Source: Halopseudomonas phragmitis (GTDB lineage: Bacteria > Pseudomonadota > Gammaproteobacteria > Pseudomonadales > Pseudomonadaceae). From it: 64,000 nt of DNA. A model generated the notes under the pieces. It was not told where the DNA came from. It did no database searches and worked only from the letters and a program-made list of their open reading frames with translations. This document shows positions 26,585-35,945 of this stretch, in pieces (the first letter of the stretch is position 1; the number at the start of each line of letters is the position of its first letter). The stretch is taken from NCBI RefSeq assembly GCF_002056295.1, contig NZ_CP020100.1, forward strand, positions 1,759,501-1,823,500, read 5' to 3'. The translations under genes and the position numbers were made by a program.

Positions 26585-28387
26585 TTAGCGGCTCGCCAGC
26601 CAGGCTTTCCAGCCACCAAACTCGGTAATGTCGGTGGCGCCTTCCAGGCCGTAGGGGTCGCAGATAAAGCCGGTTTCCCAGCGCCCATCAGCCAATTGCA
26701 CTTTGCCCAGCCCCAGCGGCGCCGGAATACCGGTAAGGAAAGAGCCCAGTTCGCGGCTCGGCAATTCCCAGACTTCGACCTGAATCGCCTGACCTCCTTC
26801 GGCCACCCGCAGCATGCCCGGGCGCATCGGTGGGCCGCCGGCCAGGGCATAGAGCTTGTAATCGGCAGAGCTTGCAGTAGCCTCCAGCAACCGGCCGCCG
26901 CGTTGACGCAATTGCCAGTTCAGCGGCAGGCCATCCAGGTGCGCGCCGCAGACTACTACCCGGGCCATGTCGTTGCGGGCTGGTGTGGCCGGCAGGCTGC
27001 TGCTCAGCGGTTGCTCGCCGACCAGCGGCAATCCGCTGTGTTGCTGTAGCGCGGCGCCCAGGCTGAGCAGGTACTGATCGGTGAAGGCGCGACCGAACAG
27101 GGTGACGCCCCACGGCAGGCCGTTGGCCATGAAGCCGCTCGGCACGGCAACGGCAGCGTAATCGAGCAGGTTCATGAAGTTGGTGTAATAGCCCAGGTCG
27201 CTGTTGCGCGCGACCGGCTCGGCCTCCAGTTCGGCCAGGGTCACCGGGCGTGGGATGGTCGGGGTCAGGACACAATCCATATCAGCCAGCAACTGATCGC
27301 AGAGGGTCTTGTAGCCCTGCAGCCGGTACTGGTATTCGAAGGCATCCTGGGCGCTGAACTGTGGCGCCTTGTCCAGCACCGCACGAATCACTGGCAGTAC
27401 CGCTTCGGGATCGCGCTCGATCAGCTCGCCGGCGACGCTGTAGCGTTCGGCGACCCAGGGCCCCTCGTAAAGTAGTTTGGCGGCCTGCATAAAGGGATCA
27501 AGATCGATTTCCACCGGCGTACCGCCGATGGCCTTGAGCTGCTCGATAGCGGCAGCGAATAACCCGGGGCTTTCCGGGCACCCAAGAAATTCAGGTGTTT
27601 TTGGTACCCCGAAGCGGAATGGGCGTGGGCTGCCGAAGGCGTCAGCGGCATTCCACAGCGGGTTGGCCCGGCTGTAATCGTCGCTGGGGTCGCGCTTGGC
27701 GGTCAGGGCCAGCAGTTTCGAGCACTCGGCTGCACTGGCGGCGAAATAGGTGATGCAGTCCAGCGTTCGACAGGCCGGTACCAGACCGCTGGCCGACAAC
27801 AGGCCCCGGGTTTGCTTGAGTCCGACCAGATTGTTCAGCGCCGCCGGCACCCGGCCGGAACCGGCGGTATCGGTGCCCAGGGCAAAACTGCACAGACCCA
27901 GGGCCACGCTCAGGGCTGAACCTGAACTAGAACCACCCGATGGGTATTGCGGATGGGTGGCATTGTGGCAGGCGCCGTAGGGCGAGCGAGTGCCGTTCAA
28001 CCCGGTAGCGAACTGGTCGAGATTGGTCTTGCCCAACGGCACGGCACCCAGCTCGATCAGTTGCTGTACCAGGGTTGCCGAGCAATTCGGAGTATAGGAA
28101 AAAGCCGGACAGGCAGCAGTGGTTGGAATGCCGGCCAGGTCAATGTTGTCCTTTATGGCGAACGGCACGCCGAACAGCGGCAATTGCTCCGGGCTCTTGC
28201 CATCCAGCGCAGCCAGATAGGGCTCCAGTTCGGTCTCGCTGAGCAGGTGGATGAACAGCGGATTATCGCTGTTGAGCGTGGCGGCGCGTTGGCGCAGTTC
28301 AACAAGCAGTTGGCGAGGGGTGAATGCGCCTTCCTTGTAGGCGGCCTGCAGTGCGTCGAGACGCAGATCGTGGTCAAAGCGTGTCAT
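26585..28387 (-). CDS. atzF: Allophanate hydrolase
   Basis: AtzF hydrolyses allophanate to two ammonia and two CO2, the last step of guanidine or urea assimilation here. The 600-residue protein has the amidase-signature domain (about 1-450) with catalytic K79 (AIKDNID), cis-Ser S153 in GGSSSGSA and nucleophile S177 in GTDTAGSGR, and the smaller C-terminal domain typical of allophanate hydrolases (about 460-600, GGPPMRPGML). It overlaps the carboxylase gene by 4 bases (ATGA), so the two are coupled. Last gene of the riboswitch-controlled operon. Confidence 0.95.
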   Translation of the reverse strand: MTRFDHDLRLDALQAAYKEGAFTPRQLLVELRQRAATLNSDNPLFIHLLSETELEPYLAALDGKSPEQLPLFGVPFAIKDNIDLAGIPTTAACPAFSYTPNCSATLVQQLIELGAVPLGKTNLDQFATGLNGTRSPYGACHNATHPQYPSGGSSSGSALSVALGLCSFALGTDTAGSGRVPAALNNLVGLKQTRGLLSASGLVPACRTLDCITYFAASAAECSKLLALTAKRDPSDDYSRANPLWNAADAFGSPRPFRFGVPKTPEFLGCPESPGLFAAAIEQLKAIGGTPVEIDLDPFMQAAKLLYEGPWVAERYSVAGELIERDPEAVLPVIRAVLDKAPQFSAQDAFEYQYRLQGYKTLCDQLLADMDCVLTPTIPRPVTLAELEAEPVARNSDLGYYTNFMNLLDYAAVAVPSGFMANGLPWGVTLFGRAFTDQYLLSLGAALQQHSGLPLVGEQPLSSSLPATPARNDMARVVVCGAHLDGLPLNWQLRQRGGRLLEATASSADYKLYALAGGPPMRPGMLRVAEGGQAIQVEVWELPSRELGSFLTGIPAPLGLGKVQLADGRWETGFICDPYGLEGATDITEFGGWKAWLASR

Positions 28388-31300
28388 GCGGCGTGTTCCT
28401 CCAGAACGATCACCCGCTGTCCGGCACGTACCGGAGAGCCTGGTTGGACATGGACTGATGCGACCACCCCGGCACAGGGGGCGGTCAGGGGGATTTCCAT
28501 TTTCATGGATTCGAGTACCACCAGCACGTCGCCGGCCTGGACTTGGGCACCTGGGGTGACCTGAACCTGCCAGAGATTGCCGGCGATGTGACTGTCGATG
28601 CTGTACTGACCGGCTTCGAGCGGCTGCTCCTCAGTGGGTTCACCTGCGAGTTCTTCGCTCTGATAGTCGGCCTGGCCGTTGGTGATCCAGCGCTGGCGCT
28701 CGGCATCGAAGGCGGCCTGCTGGCGACTGCGAGCGGCAGCGATACTGTCGGCCTCGGTCGCGAGAAACTGCTGGTAGTCGGCCAGTGCCAGCTCGCTGTG
28801 TTCGATATGCAGCGGATAGCGCCCGAGTGGAAAGTCGCGGCGAATCTGTTGCAGTTCGTCAGCCGATACCGGATAGAAGCGGATCTGATCAAAGAACCGC
28901 AGCAGCCAGGGCTTGCCATCGTAGGCGGCAACCTCGCGGTAGCGGTTCCACATCTGCAGGGTACGCCCGACGAACTGGTAGCCACCGGGGCCTTCCATGC
29001 CGTAGATGCACATGTAGGCGCCACCGATACCCACCGAGTTTTCCGCCGTCCAGGTGCGTGCCGGGTTGTACTTGGTGGTCACCAGGCGGTGGCGGGGGTC
29101 GAGTGGGGTGGCCACCGGGGCGCCGAGATAAACGTCGCCCAGACCCATGACCAGGTAGCTGGCGTCAAACACGGTGCGCTGAACGGCCGTCAGATCCGGC
29201 AGATCGTTGATCCGGCGGATGAACTCCAGGTTGCTCGGGCACCAGGGGGCATCCTTGCGCACGGTGGTCATGTACTTTTCGATCGCCAACTGGCAGGCCG
29301 GGTCATCCCAGGACAGGGGCAGGTGCACTACCCGTGAAGGAACGCGCAGGTCTTCGGCACTGCAGACGGCTTGCCAGAGACGCTCGACGGTGGCGAGCAA
29401 GTGATCAAGGGCGAGGGTTTCCGGCTGGTAGTGTACTTGCAGAGAACGGATACCCGGGGTCAGATCGATCACACCGGCCAGTTGCTCGGCCTCCATCGCC
29501 TGCATCAAGGCATGGCCGCGGAAGCGCAGTACCAGATCCAGTTCCGGCGGGCCGATCTCCAGCAACAGATGGGTATCGCCGGACAGCCGTGCGACCAGCC
29601 GGGTATCGGCTTTGCCCATGTCCAGTATGATCGGTGATGCCAGCGCAACGCCTTCGCTTTGGCTCGGGCAGCAGGGCTGTAGGGTGTTGATTTCGTCCTG
29701 CTGTAAGCGGGCCAGTTCCCGTGCGGTAGCGAGGTTGACCGGGGTGAAGCGGATCTTGTCGCCGGCCTTGAGCTGGCCGAGTTGCCACAGGTCCGCCTCG
29801 ATAATGGTTACCGGGCACACAAAGCCACCCAGACTGGGACCGTCCGGGCCAAGAATCACCGGCATGTCGCCGGTAAAGTCAACGGCGCCGACGGCGTAGG
29901 GGTTGTCATGGATGTTTGATGGATGCAGGCCCGCCTCGCCGCCATCCTCGCGCGCCCATTCCGGTTTTGGCCCGATCAGGCGCACCCCGGTGCGGCTGGA
30001 GTTGAAATGCACCTCCCACTCGGTGGTAAAGAAGCGTTCGATGTAATCGGCGGTGAAATACTCGGGTGCGCCATGCGGACCATAGATCACTCGCAGTTCG
30101 CGGACCTCGGCCAGCGACGTGTGTAGGGCGGCTGGCAGGCTGGCTGGTGTGGCTGGTGCCAGCGGCAGCAGCCGCAGCACATCGCCTGCGCGCAGCGCCC
30201 GGCCGGCATGACCACCAAACTGACCGAGGGTGAAGGTGCTCTTGCTGCCGAGGTAATCCGGTACCTGAAGCCCTCCCTGAACCGCCAGATAGCTGCGCGC
30301 ACCGGCACCTTCGATGGTTCCCAGGCTGAGGGTGCTGCCAGCGGGTATATCGAGCACCTGATTCATGGGTTGGGTCGCCCCGTCCAGCTTCACCGGCAGG
30401 CTGGCGCCACTGACGACCACCTGGGTGGCGCTGTTGAAGCTCAGGGTCGGGCCGCTCATGGTGATTTCCAGGCCGGCGGCGTCGGTGGCGTTGCCCAACA
30501 GGCGGTTGGCCAGCGCCAGCGCCCGACTGTCCATGGGCCCGGAGGGCGGTACGCCGACTGCCCAGTAGCCGAGTCGGCCGGGCAAGTCCTGTACGGTGGT
30601 TTGGGTGCCAGGAATCAGCACTTCACAGGTTGTGGCCTGATAGGTCAGGTTTTCCAGGCAGCGGGTCCAGGGCTCTCCACTGGCAAAGGGGGCGTCATTG
30701 AGAATCTGGCGCAAATAGCCCAAGTTGGTTTCCACCCCGTAGAGCCGGGTCTCGGCCAGCAGTTGATCCAGAGCGGCACTGGCCGTTGCACGGTCGGGCT
30801 GCCAGCAGATCAGTTTGGCGATCATCGGATCGAAGTAGGGGGCAATTTCACAGCCGGCTTCCACCCAGGTATCGATGCGCACCGCTTGCCCGTCAGCCGG
30901 CGGAAACTCGACCTGGGTCAGCAGACCCGGGCTGGGTTGGAAGTCGCGCCCCGGGTCTTCAGCATACAGCCGCGCCTGGATGGCATGGCCACGTGGTTGC
31001 AGGGTCTTGCCCAGCTCGGCCAGCGGCGGCAGATCGCCTGCTGCCAGGCGGACCATCCATTCAACGATATCGACCCCCCAGACCTGCTCGGTGACGCCGT
31101 GCTCGACCTGCAGGCGGGTATTGACTTCAAGGAAGTAGAACTGCTCGGCGGCGCTGTCATAGACAAACTCGACGGTGCCGGCACTGCGGTATTTGATCGC
31201 ACTGGCCAGCTGGATCGCGGCCTGACAGAGTGCATCGGCCATGCCGGCGGGCAGGTTGGGTGCCGGGGTTTCCTCGAGTACCTTCTGGTTGCGCCGCTGC

Positions 31301-31989
31301 ACCGAGCAATCGCGCACGCCCAGCGCCAGGACCTCGCCCTGGCCATCGCCAAACACCTGGACTTCCAGGTGTCGTGCGCGCTGGATGTACTTCTCGATAA
31401 ACACCCCGGCATCACTGAAGTTGTTCTGTCCGAGGCGTTTCACCGCATCGAAGGCGTCGCCCAGTTCGGCGGCATTGTGACAGACGCGCATGCCGATGCC
31501 GCCACCGCCGGCGGTACTTTTCAGCATCACCGGGTAACCCACCTGATCGGCCGCGCACAAGGCATCGGCCAGGCTGTCCAGCAGCTCGGTGCCCTCAAGC
31601 ATGGGCACGCCATGGGCCTTGGCCAGGGCGCGGGCGGTGTGCTTGAGGCCAAACACTCGCAGTTGTTCCGGCGTTGGCCCGACAAAGGCTATGCCGGCGG
31701 CTTCACAGGCTTCGGCAAAGGCGGCGTTTTCCGACAAAAAGCCGTAGCCCGGATGGATCGCCTGGGCACCGCTGGCACGGGCGGCGGCGAGGATCTTGTC
31801 GACATCCAGGTAGGTGGCACTGGCCGCGCCCTCACCTAGGGCAATAGCCTGATCGGCCTGTTGTACATGCAGGCTGCCGGCATCGGCCTCGGCATACACG
31901 GCGACACCCTGCACCTCGAGGGTTCTCAAGGTACGCAGGATGCGGCAGGCAATGGCGCCACGGTTGGCAATCAGCAGGGTGTTGAACAT
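28384..31989 (-). CDS. Biotin-dependent urea/guanidine carboxylase
   Basis: A 1201-residue biotin-dependent carboxylase of the urea carboxylase family. Domains in order are biotin carboxylase (about 1-450, ATP-grasp STAGGGGIGMRV), KipA-like carboxyltransferase (about 470-770, GVPPSGPMDSRALALANRLL), KipI-like domain (about 810-1020, with GMEGPGGYQFVGRTLQMWN) and a C-terminal biotinyl domain with biotin-accepting K1163 in ESMKME. Enzymes of this family found behind guanidine-I riboswitches with paired DUF1989 proteins carboxylate guanidine to carboxyguanidine. The riboswitch and the DUF1989 pair favour that over urea; the substrate-selecting residue was not identified here. A 166-bp repeat-bearing gap separates it from the gene upstream. 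Confidence 0.93.
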   Translation of the reverse strand: MFNTLLIANRGAIACRILRTLRTLEVQGVAVYAEADAGSLHVQQADQAIALGEGAASATYLDVDKILAAARASGAQAIHPGYGFLSENAAFAEACEAAGIAFVGPTPEQLRVFGLKHTARALAKAHGVPMLEGTELLDSLADALCAADQVGYPVMLKSTAGGGGIGMRVCHNAAELGDAFDAVKRLGQNNFSDAGVFIEKYIQRARHLEVQVFGDGQGEVLALGVRDCSVQRRNQKVLEETPAPNLPAGMADALCQAAIQLASAIKYRSAGTVEFVYDSAAEQFYFLEVNTRLQVEHGVTEQVWGVDIVEWMVRLAAGDLPPLAELGKTLQPRGHAIQARLYAEDPGRDFQPSPGLLTQVEFPPADGQAVRIDTWVEAGCEIAPYFDPMIAKLICWQPDRATASAALDQLLAETRLYGVETNLGYLRQILNDAPFASGEPWTRCLENLTYQATTCEVLIPGTQTTVQDLPGRLGYWAVGVPPSGPMDSRALALANRLLGNATDAAGLEITMSGPTLSFNSATQVVVSGASLPVKLDGATQPMNQVLDIPAGSTLSLGTIEGAGARSYLAVQGGLQVPDYLGSKSTFTLGQFGGHAGRALRAGDVLRLLPLAPATPASLPAALHTSLAEVRELRVIYGPHGAPEYFTADYIERFFTTEWEVHFNSSRTGVRLIGPKPEWAREDGGEAGLHPSNIHDNPYAVGAVDFTGDMPVILGPDGPSLGGFVCPVTIIEADLWQLGQLKAGDKIRFTPVNLATARELARLQQDEINTLQPCCPSQSEGVALASPIILDMGKADTRLVARLSGDTHLLLEIGPPELDLVLRFRGHALMQAMEAEQLAGVIDLTPGIRSLQVHYQPETLALDHLLATVERLWQAVCSAEDLRVPSRVVHLPLSWDDPACQLAIEKYMTTVRKDAPWCPSNLEFIRRINDLPDLTAVQRTVFDASYLVMGLGDVYLGAPVATPLDPRHRLVTTKYNPARTWTAENSVGIGGAYMCIYGMEGPGGYQFVGRTLQMWNRYREVAAYDGKPWLLRFFDQIRFYPVSADELQQIRRDFPLGRYPLHIEHSELALADYQQFLATEADSIAAARSRQQAAFDAERQRWITNGQADYQSEELAGEPTEEQPLEAGQYSIDSHIAGNLWQVQVTPGAQVQAGDVLVVLESMKMEIPLTAPCAGVVASVHVQPGSPVRAGQRVIVLEEHAA

Positions 31990-32155
31990 GGTCTTTCCTC
32001 GATCGGGTCGTCCCGGAAAGCACGTCTGGTCCAGACGGGTCGTCCCGGCTGGGTGATCTTGTCATGGGCTATGGTTTGCCTGACCGTGTCATTGCGAGGA
32101 GCGCAGCGACGTGGCAATCCATGCAGGTTGGGGAAGTCGCTAGGCATAAGCCAGT
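31990..32155. repeat. Repeat-filled gap inside the guanidine operon
   Basis: This 166-bp gap between two operon genes is unusual because all other junctions are 2-12 bp or overlaps. It holds two copies of CGGGTCGTCCCGG (32004-32016 and 32036-32048), a palindrome GTCTGG-T-CCAGAC between them (32024-32036), and one GTCATTGCGAGG-type unit at 32088-32121 related to the pair after argJ. No coding sequence is evident. Confidence 0.7.
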
Positions 32156-32791
32156 TCAATCCCATACCAGGTACTGCGCCGGGGTTGGGTTGTAGCCGTT
32201 GCACGGGTTGTTCAGCTGCGGGCAGTTGGAGATCAGAACGATGATGTCCATGTGGGCGACCAGTTCGACATACTTGCCGGCGGCTGAGATGCCGTCTTCA
32301 AAGGTCAGGCCGCCCTCCGGGGTGACCGGAACGTTCATGAAGAAGTTGATGTTGTGGCTGATGTCAGCCTTGCGCAGCCGACCATCATGCAGCGCGGCGC
32401 GCAGGAAATTGTCGCGGCAGCTGTGCATGTAGCGAGTGCTCAGGGCATAGCGCACGGTATTGCTTTCCTGCGCGCAGGCGCCGCCCAGGGTGTCATGCCG
32501 GCCGCAGGTGTCGGCGGTGATGGTCAGCATGGGGTGGCCCAGGTTGCTGTACAGCACACTGCCGGTGGTCAGGTAAACGCTGTTCTGCTTGCGCAGGGTG
32601 CGTTGCACGTCGTAACGCTCACGCGGGTTGCGGGCGCTGAAAAACAGCGTGTCCACCGCCTGATTGCCTTCCAGGTCCAGCAGGCGCAGGGTCTGGCCGG
32701 CCTTGAGGTCATGCAGGAAGGGTTCACCTGCGCCGATGGTAGCGCGGTACACGGCCTGTTCGGGCTGCTTGTCACTGTGGGTCAATGGCAT
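32156..32791 (-). CDS. DUF1989 urea-amidolyase-associated protein 2 (carboxyguanidine deiminase subunit)
   Basis: A 211-residue DUF1989 protein (urea carboxylase-associated, UAAP2 type). Visible family motifs are LLDLEGNQAVDTLFF, TADTCGRHDTLGGAC with a Cys and His pair likely to bind metal, and the C-terminal CNGYNPTP. In guanidine-utilising bacteria the two DUF1989 proteins form carboxyguanidine deiminase (CgdAB), which converts carboxyguanidine to allophanate plus ammonia. I am not certain which subunit letter applies. It lies 12 bp after the other DUF1989 gene. Confidence 0.9.
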   Translation of the reverse strand: MPLTHSDKQPEQAVYRATIGAGEPFLHDLKAGQTLRLLDLEGNQAVDTLFFSARNPRERYDVQRTLRKQNSVYLTTGSVLYSNLGHPMLTITADTCGRHDTLGGACAQESNTVRYALSTRYMHSCRDNFLRAALHDGRLRKADISHNINFFMNVPVTPEGGLTFEDGISAAGKYVELVAHMDIIVLISNCPQLNNPCNGYNPTPAQYLVWD

Positions 32792-32803: not shown

Positions 32804-33532
32804 TTACAGAAAGATGCGGTCGGTGTTGTGCAGTCCGCGCACGTTTTCTTCGCGGGTGCGGCGACACAGCACGGTGACGCCGTCATCGGCCGCCTGGTGC
32901 CAGCTCAACTGCACGGGTTTCGGAGCGTATACGGGGTTCGGGTCCATGGGGTGCTGCAGGGCGGTGAGCACCACCAGGGTATCCATCGGCGCATACAGTT
33001 CGATGTAATCGCCGCTCTGGCTGTTGCCGGCTTCAAAGGCAAAACGGCCTTCGGTATCCACGCTGACCTTGCTGAACAGGTTGAGGGTCATCAGCAGGTC
33101 CTGCAGTTGCATATCCCACTTGCCCAGTTCCACCAGCAGGTTGTCGAAGCCGTTGCGGAAAAAGCTGTTGCGCAGCTGTTGGTAGCTGCCGGCACCGTAC
33201 TTTTCTGTGACTTCCTCGGCATTCAGCACGCCACCAAAGCTGTCGTGCCAGCCGCAGGTATCGCTGACGATGGCCGCCAGTACCTTGCCCATGTCCGAAT
33301 ACAGGCAGTGGCCAGCGGTAAGTTTGGCGGTGTGCTGGCATTTCAGGCTGTCCGGCAGGTTGAGGCGTTCGCTTTTCTCCTGGGCGTTGAACAGCAACAG
33401 ACTGACATTGGCGTCGCCCTCAAGGTCGGTGATACGCAGCAGCTGGCCACGCTTGAGTACGAATGAGGTATGGCCGCCGCCGGGGACGGTTTCCTGGTAC
33501 AGGGTTGGGCGAAGGGGGGCAGGCAGAGTCAT
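32804..33532 (-). CDS. DUF1989 urea-amidolyase-associated protein 1 (carboxyguanidine deiminase subunit)
   Basis: A 242-residue DUF1989 protein (UAAP1 type), the longer partner of the pair. It shows ITDLEGDANVSLLLFNA, SDTCGWHDSFGG and YIELYAPMDTLVVLTAL. At the position where the partner has CNGYNPTP this protein has MDPNPVYAPKP, so the two subunits are not equivalent and only one may carry the complete active site. By family knowledge the pair deiminates carboxyguanidine to allophanate. It starts 2 bp after the ABC ATPase gene ends. Confidence 0.9.
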   Translation of the reverse strand: MTLPAPLRPTLYQETVPGGGHTSFVLKRGQLLRITDLEGDANVSLLLFNAQEKSERLNLPDSLKCQHTAKLTAGHCLYSDMGKVLAAIVSDTCGWHDSFGGVLNAEEVTEKYGAGSYQQLRNSFFRNGFDNLLVELGKWDMQLQDLLMTLNLFSKVSVDTEGRFAFEAGNSQSGDYIELYAPMDTLVVLTALQHPMDPNPVYAPKPVQLSWHQAADDGVTVLCRRTREENVRGLHNTDRIFL

Positions 33533-33534
33533 GC

Positions 33535-34338
33535 TCAGGCTCCTTGCAATTGTGGGGCAGTAAGGTCGCGGGTCAGGCGTTCGGGCAGTGCCGCGACGGC
33601 GGCCCGGGCCACCTTGCGGTCGGTGTTGAGCGGAATGTCGTAGGTGATCCGGGCGCCGTAGGCACCGGGCGCCTGTGGATCGATCCGGGTCTTGTCGAAC
33701 ACCAGCAGGCGGGTGCCAAGACTGAAGCCCTCGGCCAGATCGTGGGTGACCATGAATACGGTCAGCCCGGTCTGCTGCCAGAGTTCCAGCAGCAGCGCGT
33801 GCATGTCCTTGCGGATGCCTGGGTCGAGGGCGCCGAACGGCTCATCCAGCAGCAGGATGCGCGGCGCCTTGACCAGTGCCTGGGCAATCGCCAGACGCTG
33901 TTGCATGCCACCGGACAGGGCGTGCGGGTATTTGTTCAGTGCCTGGCCCAGACCAACTTTTTCCAGCATGGCCATCGCCTGCTCGCGGGCTTCGCGGCGG
34001 GCTTGGCCGAACAGCCGGCCGAGCAGTCGTGAGCCTTGCAGCTCGAGCCCGAGCATGACGTTGCCGAGTACCGTCAGGTGCGGAAATACCGAATAGCGCT
34101 GGAATACCACACCGCGCTCTGGCCCTGGCTCGCTGGCCAGGGGTTGGCCGTCGATCAGCAACTGGCCGCGGCTCGGTGTCTCCTGCCCCAGCAATAGGCG
34201 CAAGAAGGTCGATTTGCCGCAACCGGAGGCGCCGACCATGGTGATGAATTCGCCGTTGGCCACCTCCATGTTGAGGTTCTCCAGGACCACCTGGTCAGCG
34301 TACTGCTGCCAGACGCCCTTGATCGAAATGGCGCTCAT
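33535..34338 (-). CDS. ABC transporter ATP-binding protein (guanidine-operon importer)
   Basis: A 267-residue ABC ATPase of the SsuB/TauB type. Motifs are Walker A GASGCGKS, signature LSGGMQQRLAIAQAL, Walker B ILLLDEPFGALDP and H-loop VTHD. The ATG at 34338 begins MSAISIKGVWQQY and sits one base after the permease stop codon; an earlier start at 34389 would overlap the permease gene and lacks family support. With the permease it forms the core of a predicted importer for guanidine or a related compound. No substrate-binding protein gene accompanies it. Confidence 0.92.
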   Translation of the reverse strand: MSAISIKGVWQQYADQVVLENLNMEVANGEFITMVGASGCGKSTFLRLLLGQETPSRGQLLIDGQPLASEPGPERGVVFQRYSVFPHLTVLGNVMLGLELQGSRLLGRLFGQARREAREQAMAMLEKVGLGQALNKYPHALSGGMQQRLAIAQALVKAPRILLLDEPFGALDPGIRKDMHALLLELWQQTGLTVFMVTHDLAEGFSLGTRLLVFDKTRIDPQAPGAYGARITYDIPLNTDRKVARAAVAALPERLTRDLTAPQLQGA

Positions 34339-34339
34339 A

Positions 34340-35158
34340 TCAGTGGCCTCCTTTGGGTTCGAACCAGGGGAACAGCAGGCGGCAGGCACCTTTGAGCAGG
34401 CGGTCCATGCAGAAAGCCAGTAGGGTTATCCAGGCTACGTAGGGCAGGATCACGTCCATCGCCAGGTAGCGGCGGACCAGGAATATGCGGTATCCCAGGC
34501 CCTCGGTCGAAGCGATCGCCTCGGCGGCGATCAGAAACAGCCAGGCTGGGCCCAGTGCCAGACACAGGCCCTGCAGCAAACGCGGCAGCAGTTGCGGCAA
34601 AACTACCCGGATCAGCACCTGCCAGCTGTTGGCGCCCAGGGTTTGGGCCTTGATCAGCAGTTCGGCAGGAATCTCCGCGACTCGCTGCTGCAGATCGCGA
34701 ATCAATACCGGGGTAATACCGATGACGATCAGCATTACCTTCGATAGCTCACCCAGGCCCATGACAATGAACAGGATCGGCAGTATCGCCAGCGGTGGGA
34801 TCATCGATATCACCGTAACCAGTGGTGACAGCGGCGTGCGTAGCAGCGGAATCAGCATCGCCAGGCCCAGCACCAGGCTGATCGCTGCGCTGATGGCAAG
34901 GCCGCTACCCAGGCGTTTGAGGCTGGCGGCGCTGTCGTCCCACCACAGGTAGGCGCCACTGCGCCGGTCTTCCGTGAAGGCCATGCGTTCGACCGCCTCG
35001 CTCATCTGGCTGAAACTGGGCAGTAGCTTGTCATTTGGGTTTTCGGCCAGACGTGCCTGTGAGCTGAACAGGTACAGCAACAACAGGATGGCAAACGGGA
35101 GCAGGATCAGCCCAAGGCGCAGGGGGCGACCGGGGTGCCGGTTCATCAAGCGGGGCAT
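34340..35158 (-). CDS. ABC transporter permease (guanidine-operon importer)
   Basis: A 272-residue inner-membrane permease of the BPD_transp_1 (SsuC/TauC-like) family with about six membrane helices and an EAA-type loop (ELLIKAQTLGANSWQVLIRV) that contacts the ATPase. It is the first gene of the operon: the guanidine-I riboswitch lies immediately upstream, and GGAG sits 7 bases before the ATG at 35158. In the guanidine operons I know of, a periplasmic substrate-binding protein gene precedes the permease; here it is absent. Confidence 0.92.
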   Translation of the reverse strand: MPRLMNRHPGRPLRLGLILLPFAILLLLYLFSSQARLAENPNDKLLPSFSQMSEAVERMAFTEDRRSGAYLWWDDSAASLKRLGSGLAISAAISLVLGLAMLIPLLRTPLSPLVTVISMIPPLAILPILFIVMGLGELSKVMLIVIGITPVLIRDLQQRVAEIPAELLIKAQTLGANSWQVLIRVVLPQLLPRLLQGLCLALGPAWLFLIAAEAIASTEGLGYRIFLVRRYLAMDVILPYVAWITLLAFCMDRLLKGACRLLFPWFEPKGGH

Positions 35159-35172
35159 GGCAAGTCTCCATT

Positions 35173-35300
35173 GGTTACACGGGCCGAGATCTCAGCAGTC
35201 TGAGCGTCTCCCGGGCTTTTATCCCGCCGTGTAACCTCCGGAGGAGGTCGACAACTCTCGGACCAGTCACCTTCTGCGAAGGTCGGAACCCTAGTCGTCC
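35173..35300 (-). promoter_or_regulatory. Guanidine-I (ykkC) riboswitch
   Basis: On the minus strand three conserved blocks of the ykkC class I aptamer appear in order: CTAGGGTTCCG (35284-35294), CTGGTCCGAGAG (35255-35266), and ACACGG followed by CGGGATAAAAGCCCGGGAGA (35207-35232). Aptamers of this class bind free guanidinium and switch genes on. Downstream, CCGTGTAACC (35173-35182) is perfectly complementary to GGTTACACGG (35227-35236), which contains the conserved ACACGG core, and the GGAG ribosome binding site starts 3 nt after it. No intrinsic terminator is visible, so control is probably translational. Confidence 0.95.
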
Positions 35301-35388
35301 ATTTGCGTTGAGTTGTAGTAGGTCATGATGCGACCGGCAACACGCAAGGGGTCAGTCAGACCCGGATCTCGGATGCTGCTGAGGCTAA

Positions 35389-35404
35389 TGCAGGGGGCGT
35401 GCCA
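35389..35404 (-). promoter_or_regulatory. Sigma-54 promoter of the guanidine operon
   Basis: On the minus strand TGGCACG-CCCC-CTGCA matches the RpoN consensus (TGGCACG-N4-TTGCA) at all positions except one, with the GG and GC dinucleotides exactly 10 bases apart. Transcription would start near 35378, giving a leader of about 220 nt that contains the whole riboswitch. Confidence 0.8.
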
Positions 35405-35419
35405 GAATGGGTCGACCAG

Positions 35420-35431
35420 CTTGTATACAAG
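35420..35431. promoter_or_regulatory. Perfect palindrome CTTGTATACAAG, putative operator
   Basis: This 12-bp perfect palindrome lies 15 bp upstream of the -24 element of the sigma-54 promoter. TTGTATACAA-type palindromes are often bound by GntR-family regulators, but no such gene is in the window, so the binding protein is unknown. Confidence 0.4.
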
Positions 35432-35481
35432 ATGTGCGCTGCGGTTGATGAGGCGATTGCGGGTTTGTGCGGGGTAATATG

Positions 35482-35497
35482 TGCTCGTTTATGGTGC
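35482..35497. promoter_or_regulatory. NtrC-like enhancer site
   Basis: TGCTC-N5-TGGTGC differs from the NtrC consensus (TGCAC-N5-TGGTGCA) at one core position. Its centre is about 111 bp upstream of the predicted sigma-54 start site, a usual enhancer distance. Confidence 0.55.
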
Positions 35498-35555
35498 GCG
35501 CCGTGTGCCGGCTGGCGTATTTTGGGGCGGCTGGCGCTTGAATATCACGTCAAGC

Positions 35556-35585
35556 TTGCCGCTATGGGGCAAACAAGGCTAACCT
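35556..35585 (+). promoter_or_regulatory. Candidate rnpB promoter
   Basis: TTGCCG (35556-35561) and TAACCT (35580-35585) are 18 bp apart and place the start near 35592, matching the predicted 5' end of RNase P RNA. The hexamers are only moderately close to consensus. Confidence 0.45.
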
Positions 35586-35591
35586 TGCAGC

Positions 35592-35945
<354 letters not shown>

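Follow-up and report, generated by a model that had tools for sequence, protein, structure and literature searches.

Within 325 bp on the minus strand of the window (the whole 64,000-nt stretch of Halopseudomonas phragmitis DNA that was analysed), an NtrC-like site, a predicted sigma-54 promoter and a guanidine-I riboswitch aptamer lie in series and are followed by a guanidine-carboxylase operon; the leader that carries them and the RNase P RNA gene (rnpB) diverge. The operon, all of it on the minus strand, opens with a gene for a TauC/SsuC-like ABC transporter permease (34340-35158), whose NCBIfam matches are all under the curated cut-offs. It continues with a transporter ATPase (NCBIfam match; the stretch searched was 33535-34347, and the reading frame opens at 34389), UAAP1 (32804-33532; TIGR03425, 319.9 bits), UAAP2 (32156-32791; TIGR03424, 325.3 bits), a urea/guanidine carboxylase (28384-31989; TIGR02712, 1871.8 bits) and an allophanate hydrolase (26585-28387; TIGR02713, 787.7 bits). 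UAAP1 and UAAP2 are presumably the subunits of a carboxyguanidine deiminase. Many relatives place a binding-protein gene first; here, unlike in those relatives, no such gene lies between the leader and the permease. Just 5' of the carboxylase gene there is a guanidine-II riboswitch (32003-32051, minus strand; RF01068, 36.3 bits against a gathering score of 32), so that two classes of guanidine riboswitch occur in the same operon. A guanidine-I leader followed by guanidine-II on the same strand was found in 42 of 59 guanidine-I genomes, the source genome included, in a tally that was built from guanidine-II places able to match only and in which four class-II matches fall below the Rfam cut-off.

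The candidate sigma-54 (-24/-12) promoter, TGGCACgccccCTGC / TGGCACGCCCCCTGC, occupies 35404-35390 on the minus strand and has a single mismatch to TGGCAC-N5-TTGC, with the GG and GC intact; this consensus is also given in PMC2573895. Boxes of equal quality turn up in 150 bp of shuffled window leader at a frequency of 0.006, and the genome encodes RpoN (TIGR02395, 531.7 bits, the single match above cut-off). The near-perfect RpoN promoter proposed in the initial annotation is very likely a real gate. The box predicts a transcription start at about 35379 and the first gene has its ATG at 35158, which gives a leader of about 220 nt, the length that had been claimed. Between the NtrC site and the promoter there is also a perfect 12-bp palindrome, CTTGTATACAAG (35420-35431), which occurs in four of the 11 orthologous leaders aligned and has no other exact copy in the genome. 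It bears what we take to be a resemblance to GntR-type operators and is a possible operator for some protein; with a single genomic copy no regulon could be built, and its candidacy as a regulon operator was rejected.

The guanidine-I aptamer claimed for this leader was recovered at 35305-35206 on the minus strand, where RF00442 matches with 93.5 bits (gathering score 63) over model positions 1-107 of 107. From its conserved core and predicted folds, it would be expected to bind guanidine and to switch expression on. In the minimum-energy folds of the window leader, CUCCG and GGUUACACGG (35227-35243, minus strand), which belong to the loop, 3' strand and core of aptamer helix P3, pair with CCGUGUAACC and the UGGAG that follows it (35166-35182, minus strand), the latter strand containing the Shine-Dalgarno sequence GGAG (35169-35166). 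Such an OFF hairpin would act on translation by covering the Shine-Dalgarno sequence. A ligand-like state, with the aptamer helices imposed and the core and tail left free, was used as a stand-in for bound ligand; two of the four Shine-Dalgarno bases are paired in it, versus four of four in the OFF fold, and it lies 10 kcal/mol above OFF with the ligand energy not yet added.

A scan for TGGCAC-N5-TTGC upstream of other guanidine aptamers, suggested in the initial annotation, was strongly positive. Guanidine-I aptamers were found in 59 of the 144 genomes searched, at 84 places, of which 83 were used; L070 was left out for want of upstream sequence. Allowing at most one mismatch and a distance of up to 150 bp, 63 of these 83 aptamers in relatives have a sigma-54 element upstream, where shuffles expect 0.9 and the controls gave one on the opposite strand and one downstream. 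A mixed-species sample, obtained by a pattern scan of species genomes, comprised at least 120 loci: a first part of 80 loci with 83 aptamers, and a second part of 40 loci with 42 aptamers that was held out till last. Among the first 80 loci listed, the box was present in 15/19 gammaproteobacterial, 14/18 betaproteobacterial and 12/17 alphaproteobacterial leaders (the last count including L216, which has no upstream sequence), and in 0/29 non-proteobacterial ones (Firmicutes 0/19, cyanobacteria 0/6, actinobacteria 0/3, Campylobacterota 0/1). The held-out loci, two of which (L232 and L258) have just 40 and 23 nt upstream, gave 18/25 proteobacterial and 0/17 other leaders; for the whole sample, among the loci listed, the box precedes 59 of 79 proteobacterial aptamers versus 0 of 46 others. 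Firmicutes leaders mostly stand before SMR exporter genes (15/19 among the first 80 loci listed), and a hand count of the loci listed found the box in 0/15 non-proteobacterial leaders that precede binding-protein, UAAP or carboxylase genes. A phylum-wide draw of 398 genomes, from which three sub-cut-off places were left out, added 10/12 other gammaproteobacterial and 7/14 other proteobacterial leaders with the box. Named loci were placed in phylum and order by hand, from database descriptions; the leader sets overlap partly (e.g. G272 with L173, and G006 with L239), and near-duplicates were removed for the NtrC spacer, helix and phasing statistics given below. On these sequences, the stack of a predicted sigma-54 promoter and a guanidine-I aptamer is widespread in Proteobacteria. 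Proteobacterial leaders that lack the box include those of Nitrosomonas/Nitrosospira (L174, L176, L208) and Rhodobacteraceae (L172, L183, L224), perhaps because nitrogen control differs in these groups. They might use guanidine for energy, or have an NtrC that works without sigma-54, the numbers being tiny.

The predicted start also defines a 5' end whose sequence is complementary to the expression platform. In the ortholog alignment a second conserved block lies right after the start, reading CGAGATC in most rows, and this is the reverse complement of GATCTCG in the platform. In the window leader the 5' strand CCGAGATC (35372-35365, minus strand; about +8 to +15 of the predicted transcript) is complementary to GATCTCGG in the expression platform (35191-35184, minus strand), and the helix that they would form is here called P0. 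Its occurrence elsewhere was surveyed in 127 leaders with a box of at most two mismatches and at least 45 nt upstream, of which 93 non-redundant ones were kept, by taking the longest Watson-Crick match between the first 20 nt of the predicted transcript and the 47 nt past the aptamer. The mean was 6.75 bp versus 4.93 bp for swapped partners, a value reached in 0 of 10,000 permutations; the other controls gave 4.36 bp for upstream DNA and 5.26 bp for the 20 nt preceding the aptamer. Matches of at least 8 bp occurred in 28 of the 93 leaders, the maximum over 10,000 permutations being 12, and a strict subset of 33 highly dissimilar leaders kept a mean of 6.67 bp (0/10,000 permutations). The paired strings vary widely among leaders (38 listed), so the pairing is preserved while the sequence changes. 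Thirteen held-out leaders gave 6.15 versus 4.69 bp (0/10,000 random partner sets), with at least 7 bp in 2/13.

When a 16-nt frame was slid along the leaders, the score went from 4.4 at -12 to 6.6 at 0, was still 6.5 at +4 and fell to 4.7 at +12, and a further, smaller rise to 5.6 followed at +24 to +28; the maximum at the predicted start gives indirect support to that start. Among the orthologs of the window leader (nine rows, eight distinct), 88.9% of the P0 cells pair, versus 25-46% in slid registers, and three pairs have changed on both sides; the covariation score was reached by 14 of 500 shuffles, and by 13 to 145 of 500 across measures. Of 39 box-less aptamers (at most 120 nt upstream searched, L216 being without upstream sequence), seven reach at least 8 bp: L034, L044 and L047, from Pseudomonadales, carry a degenerate sigma-54-like box, and L060, L139, L148 and L186 are unexplained or due to chance. 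The averaged profile of 38 box-less leaders has a bump too, 32-40 nt ahead of the aptamer and reaching 5.3-5.6 bp. The -24 box lies 31-133 nt upstream of the aptamer in Gamma- and Betaproteobacteria; in Alphaproteobacteria it lies 23-28 nt before it (e.g. L192, L194, L217, L244), which would put the RNA start on the first bases of the aptamer itself and leave no space for P0. As a preserved complementarity, P0 is well supported by these comparisons.

As to function, P0 may be an ON-state switch that captures the platform strand freed when guanidine is bound. The complementarity might instead have no part in guanidine switching, and either serve RNA stability or a default fold or be incidental to a likeness between 5' strands and the aptamer tail; we regard this as rather unlikely, and the fold models bear on both sides. 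Forcing P0 costs a median of 5.4 kcal/mol in 45 leaders, and an energy cost in most models suits a helix that does not switch, as do the GGAG- or GAGA-like motifs that many 5' strands share with the tail; yet swapped partners retain this tail resemblance and score far lower. The stretch that best complements the aptamer tail shares positions with the platform strand in just 10/45 leaders, again in favour of a non-switching role. Against it, the unconstrained minimum-energy folds of the 45 leaders pair the platform strand locally, with aptamer or platform, in 34 cases, and six have it paired to the 5' leader; moreover, in the window model all eight P0 pairs form unenforced once the aptamer helices are set and the core and tail left free, that is, once the aptamer is ligand-like. 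With the whole aptamer masked, P0 was at least half formed in 38 of 47 leaders, and in the window 0/8 pairs formed. The P0 and OFF pairings cross, and they are mutually exclusive only if pseudoknots are excluded; a pseudoknot might hold both, and such coexistence would also suit a non-switching P0. The platform strand is followed by at least four T in 7/45 leaders and carries an anti-Shine-Dalgarno-like string in 20/45; as these features differ between leaders, expression platforms vary. On balance the ON-state switch is the reading that we prefer for P0.

The nitrogen input is suggested by the NtrC-like enhancer site GCACcataaacGAGC / GCACCATAAACGAGC at 35497-35483 on the minus strand, 93 bp upstream of the -24 box. 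The site is present as had been claimed, with one core mismatch, but taken alone it is at chance level and proves nothing, since in 220 bp of shuffled sequence a core match this good arises with a probability of 0.19, and such a 12-mer match with a probability of 0.16. Sigma-54 promoters can be served by enhancer-binding proteins other than NtrC, in which case the first input would not be nitrogen status, and the weakness of the window site on its own is one point for that reading; on the other side, the half-site GCACCA is invariant in 11/11 aligned orthologous leaders beside rnpB, where it forms the longest such block between rnpB and the promoter. The genome encodes NtrC (TIGR01818, 783.7 bits versus a cut-off of 558.6, the single match above cut-off); the many partial matches to the NtrC model, about 15 of which include the activator domain by match range, leave room for another activator. 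The genome's own glnA has upstream a perfect NtrC motif and a perfect sigma-54 box, and the identity of this motif speaks for NtrC; a sigma-54 box paired with an NtrC site was absent at the three amt loci of this genome.

Across leaders, the motif GCACCA-N3-TGGTGC was sought, two mismatches being allowed, in a non-redundant set of 119 sigma-54 leaders that excludes L070. It occurs at the correct spacer of 3 in 53/119, and at the wrong spacers of 0, 1, 2, 4, 5, 6, 7 and 8 in 9, 2, 4, 1, 10, 1, 1 and 3 leaders, respectively, a spacer specificity that argues against a different activator. By set, it was found in 35/67 leaders of the Pseudomonadales set, 5/10 other gammaproteobacterial, 6/11 mixed-sample gammaproteobacterial and 7/12 betaproteobacterial leaders; split by order, Pseudomonadales have 39/76 and other leaders 14/43. 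At the same tolerance there were 0/12 in Alphaproteobacteria and 0/7 in other non-gamma leaders, all of them with sigma-54 boxes, so that an NtrC motif was discarded for the 12 alphaproteobacterial leaders, which counts in favour of an activator other than NtrC. Distances from site to -24 box form a comb in Pseudomonadales (about 69, 80, 91, 102, 112, 123 and 134), with R of 0.82-0.85 at 10.5-11 bp for 41 sites and of 0.76-0.89 for 21 sites after strict thinning; the window site, at 93 bp, is close to this comb. Phasing was absent beyond Pseudomonadales (R 0.17-0.18, 15 sites), and helical phasing as a general rule was dropped, being confined to that order. Mutant data point to NtrC as well: in the excerpted text of PMC5491218, a 'urea carboxylase' is 6.0-fold lower in an ntrC mutant of Burkholderia cenocepacia, and na(m) is entered for a binding protein linked to it and for a UAAP-type gene. 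Taking both sides together, a non-NtrC activator seems improbable, and NtrC is the likely activator in this strain. The series of NtrC site, sigma-54 promoter and riboswitch described in the initial annotation gains support from the recurrence of the box, the enrichment of the NtrC motif at the exact spacing, the presence of both rpoN and ntrC, and the motif at glnA.

A weak sigma-70 promoter as the true start, with the sigma-54 box as decoration or chance, is very improbable: weak, unusual or non-consensus sigma-70 sites do escape a consensus scan, but the scan of 34800-35900 gave 0 sigma-70-type sites versus 0.4 expected, for which a sigma-70 start was rejected as the main reading, and both the enrichment of sigma-54 boxes before aptamers and the peak of the P0 profile at the sigma-54 start oppose it.

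The preferred reading, in which we have considerable confidence, is that this part of the window controls a guanidine-assimilation operon through two serial gates, a nitrogen-controlled promoter and a guanidine riboswitch with P0. Under nitrogen limitation, NtrC-phosphate would bind some 90 bp ahead of the -24 box and open the sigma-54 promoter, so that RNA would begin at about 35379. In the absence of guanidine, the loop and 3' strand of P3 (CUCCG...GGUUACACGG) would be base-paired to CCGUGUAACC...UGGAG, masking the ribosome-binding site. When guanidine is present, P3 and the aptamer core would fold and the OFF hairpin would be lost; the 5' end of the transcript, CCGAGAUC, would then pair with the freed platform strand, GAUCUCGG, forming P0 and favouring the ON state. 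From this anatomy we infer an AND logic of nitrogen and guanidine. A broader proposal, to which we give an even chance, is that the sigma-54 promoter and the guanidine-I riboswitch of Gamma- and Betaproteobacteria have evolved together as a single device, in which the first 15 or so bases set by the promoter form an ON-state helix with the platform. If the two-gate reading is right, guanidine use in many Proteobacteria would be governed by general nitrogen control acting at the promoter and by guanidine acting on the RNA; with both controls, the operons should be silent with plentiful ammonium or without guanidine. If P0 is real, guanidine-I leaders that are examined without their native 5' ends miss a switching strand.

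Several described systems share parts of this arrangement. The carboxylase operon of Vreelandella boliviensis, which grows on guanidine as nitrogen source, likewise begins with a guanidine-I riboswitch and has guanidine-II ahead of its carboxylase gene; unlike for the window, a sigma-54 promoter, an NtrC site and a P0 helix are not mentioned in the excerpts of that report (PMC12508155). In the NtrC regulon of B. cenocepacia H111, as excerpted, a carboxylase, a UAAP-type gene and an ABC binding protein are listed as ntrC-dependent under nitrogen limitation, as would be expected for the window operon, but the genes are named as urea genes and a riboswitch is not mentioned (PMC5491218). Predicted sigma-54 regulons include COG3665, and the partial text of that study has no mention of guanidine and draws no link to guanidine riboswitches (PMC12316311). 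The present reading would thus bridge two literatures, that of urea carboxylase in NtrC and sigma-54 work and that of guanidine carboxylase in riboswitch work. For P0, the nearest likeness is in the PRPP and ppGpp aptamers of the ykkC class, where, in the portion of PMC6031431 available, a P0 end helix joins the aptamer ends and shares in the expression platform, and is said to be absent from the guanidine aptamer; the window P0 differs in that its 5' strand is at the transcript start, tens of bases ahead of the aptamer. Two inputs in a single leader are also known from a T-box/ppGpp tandem AND gate and a guanine/PRPP IMPLY gate, in both of which, as far as the excerpted account goes, the inputs are RNA elements (PMC5912903), whereas in the window one input would be a protein-activated promoter.

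NtrC and sigma factors are not mentioned in the excerpted parts of a review of guanidine biology (PMC12186494), and an RNA map of Alcanivorax, in its excerpted text, reports guanidine-I transcripts and does not give a start position (PMC9788540). No paper joining sigma-54 or NtrC with a guanidine riboswitch was found among the matches listed in the literature searched, the main guanidine-utilisation papers lying outside its coverage. Within that literature the component parts are known and their stacking appears undescribed; P0 appears to be new for guanidine-I, such a switching element having been described for related aptamers. A second guanidine-I aptamer was observed at L085 (8136-8242; G000:C1:948135-948241). 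Downstream of it are binding-protein, short-chain dehydrogenase-like and creatininase-like genes, recognized by eye, and transporter genes; the aptamer has a sigma-54 box 79 nt upstream and lies about 0.7 kb past an amt gene.
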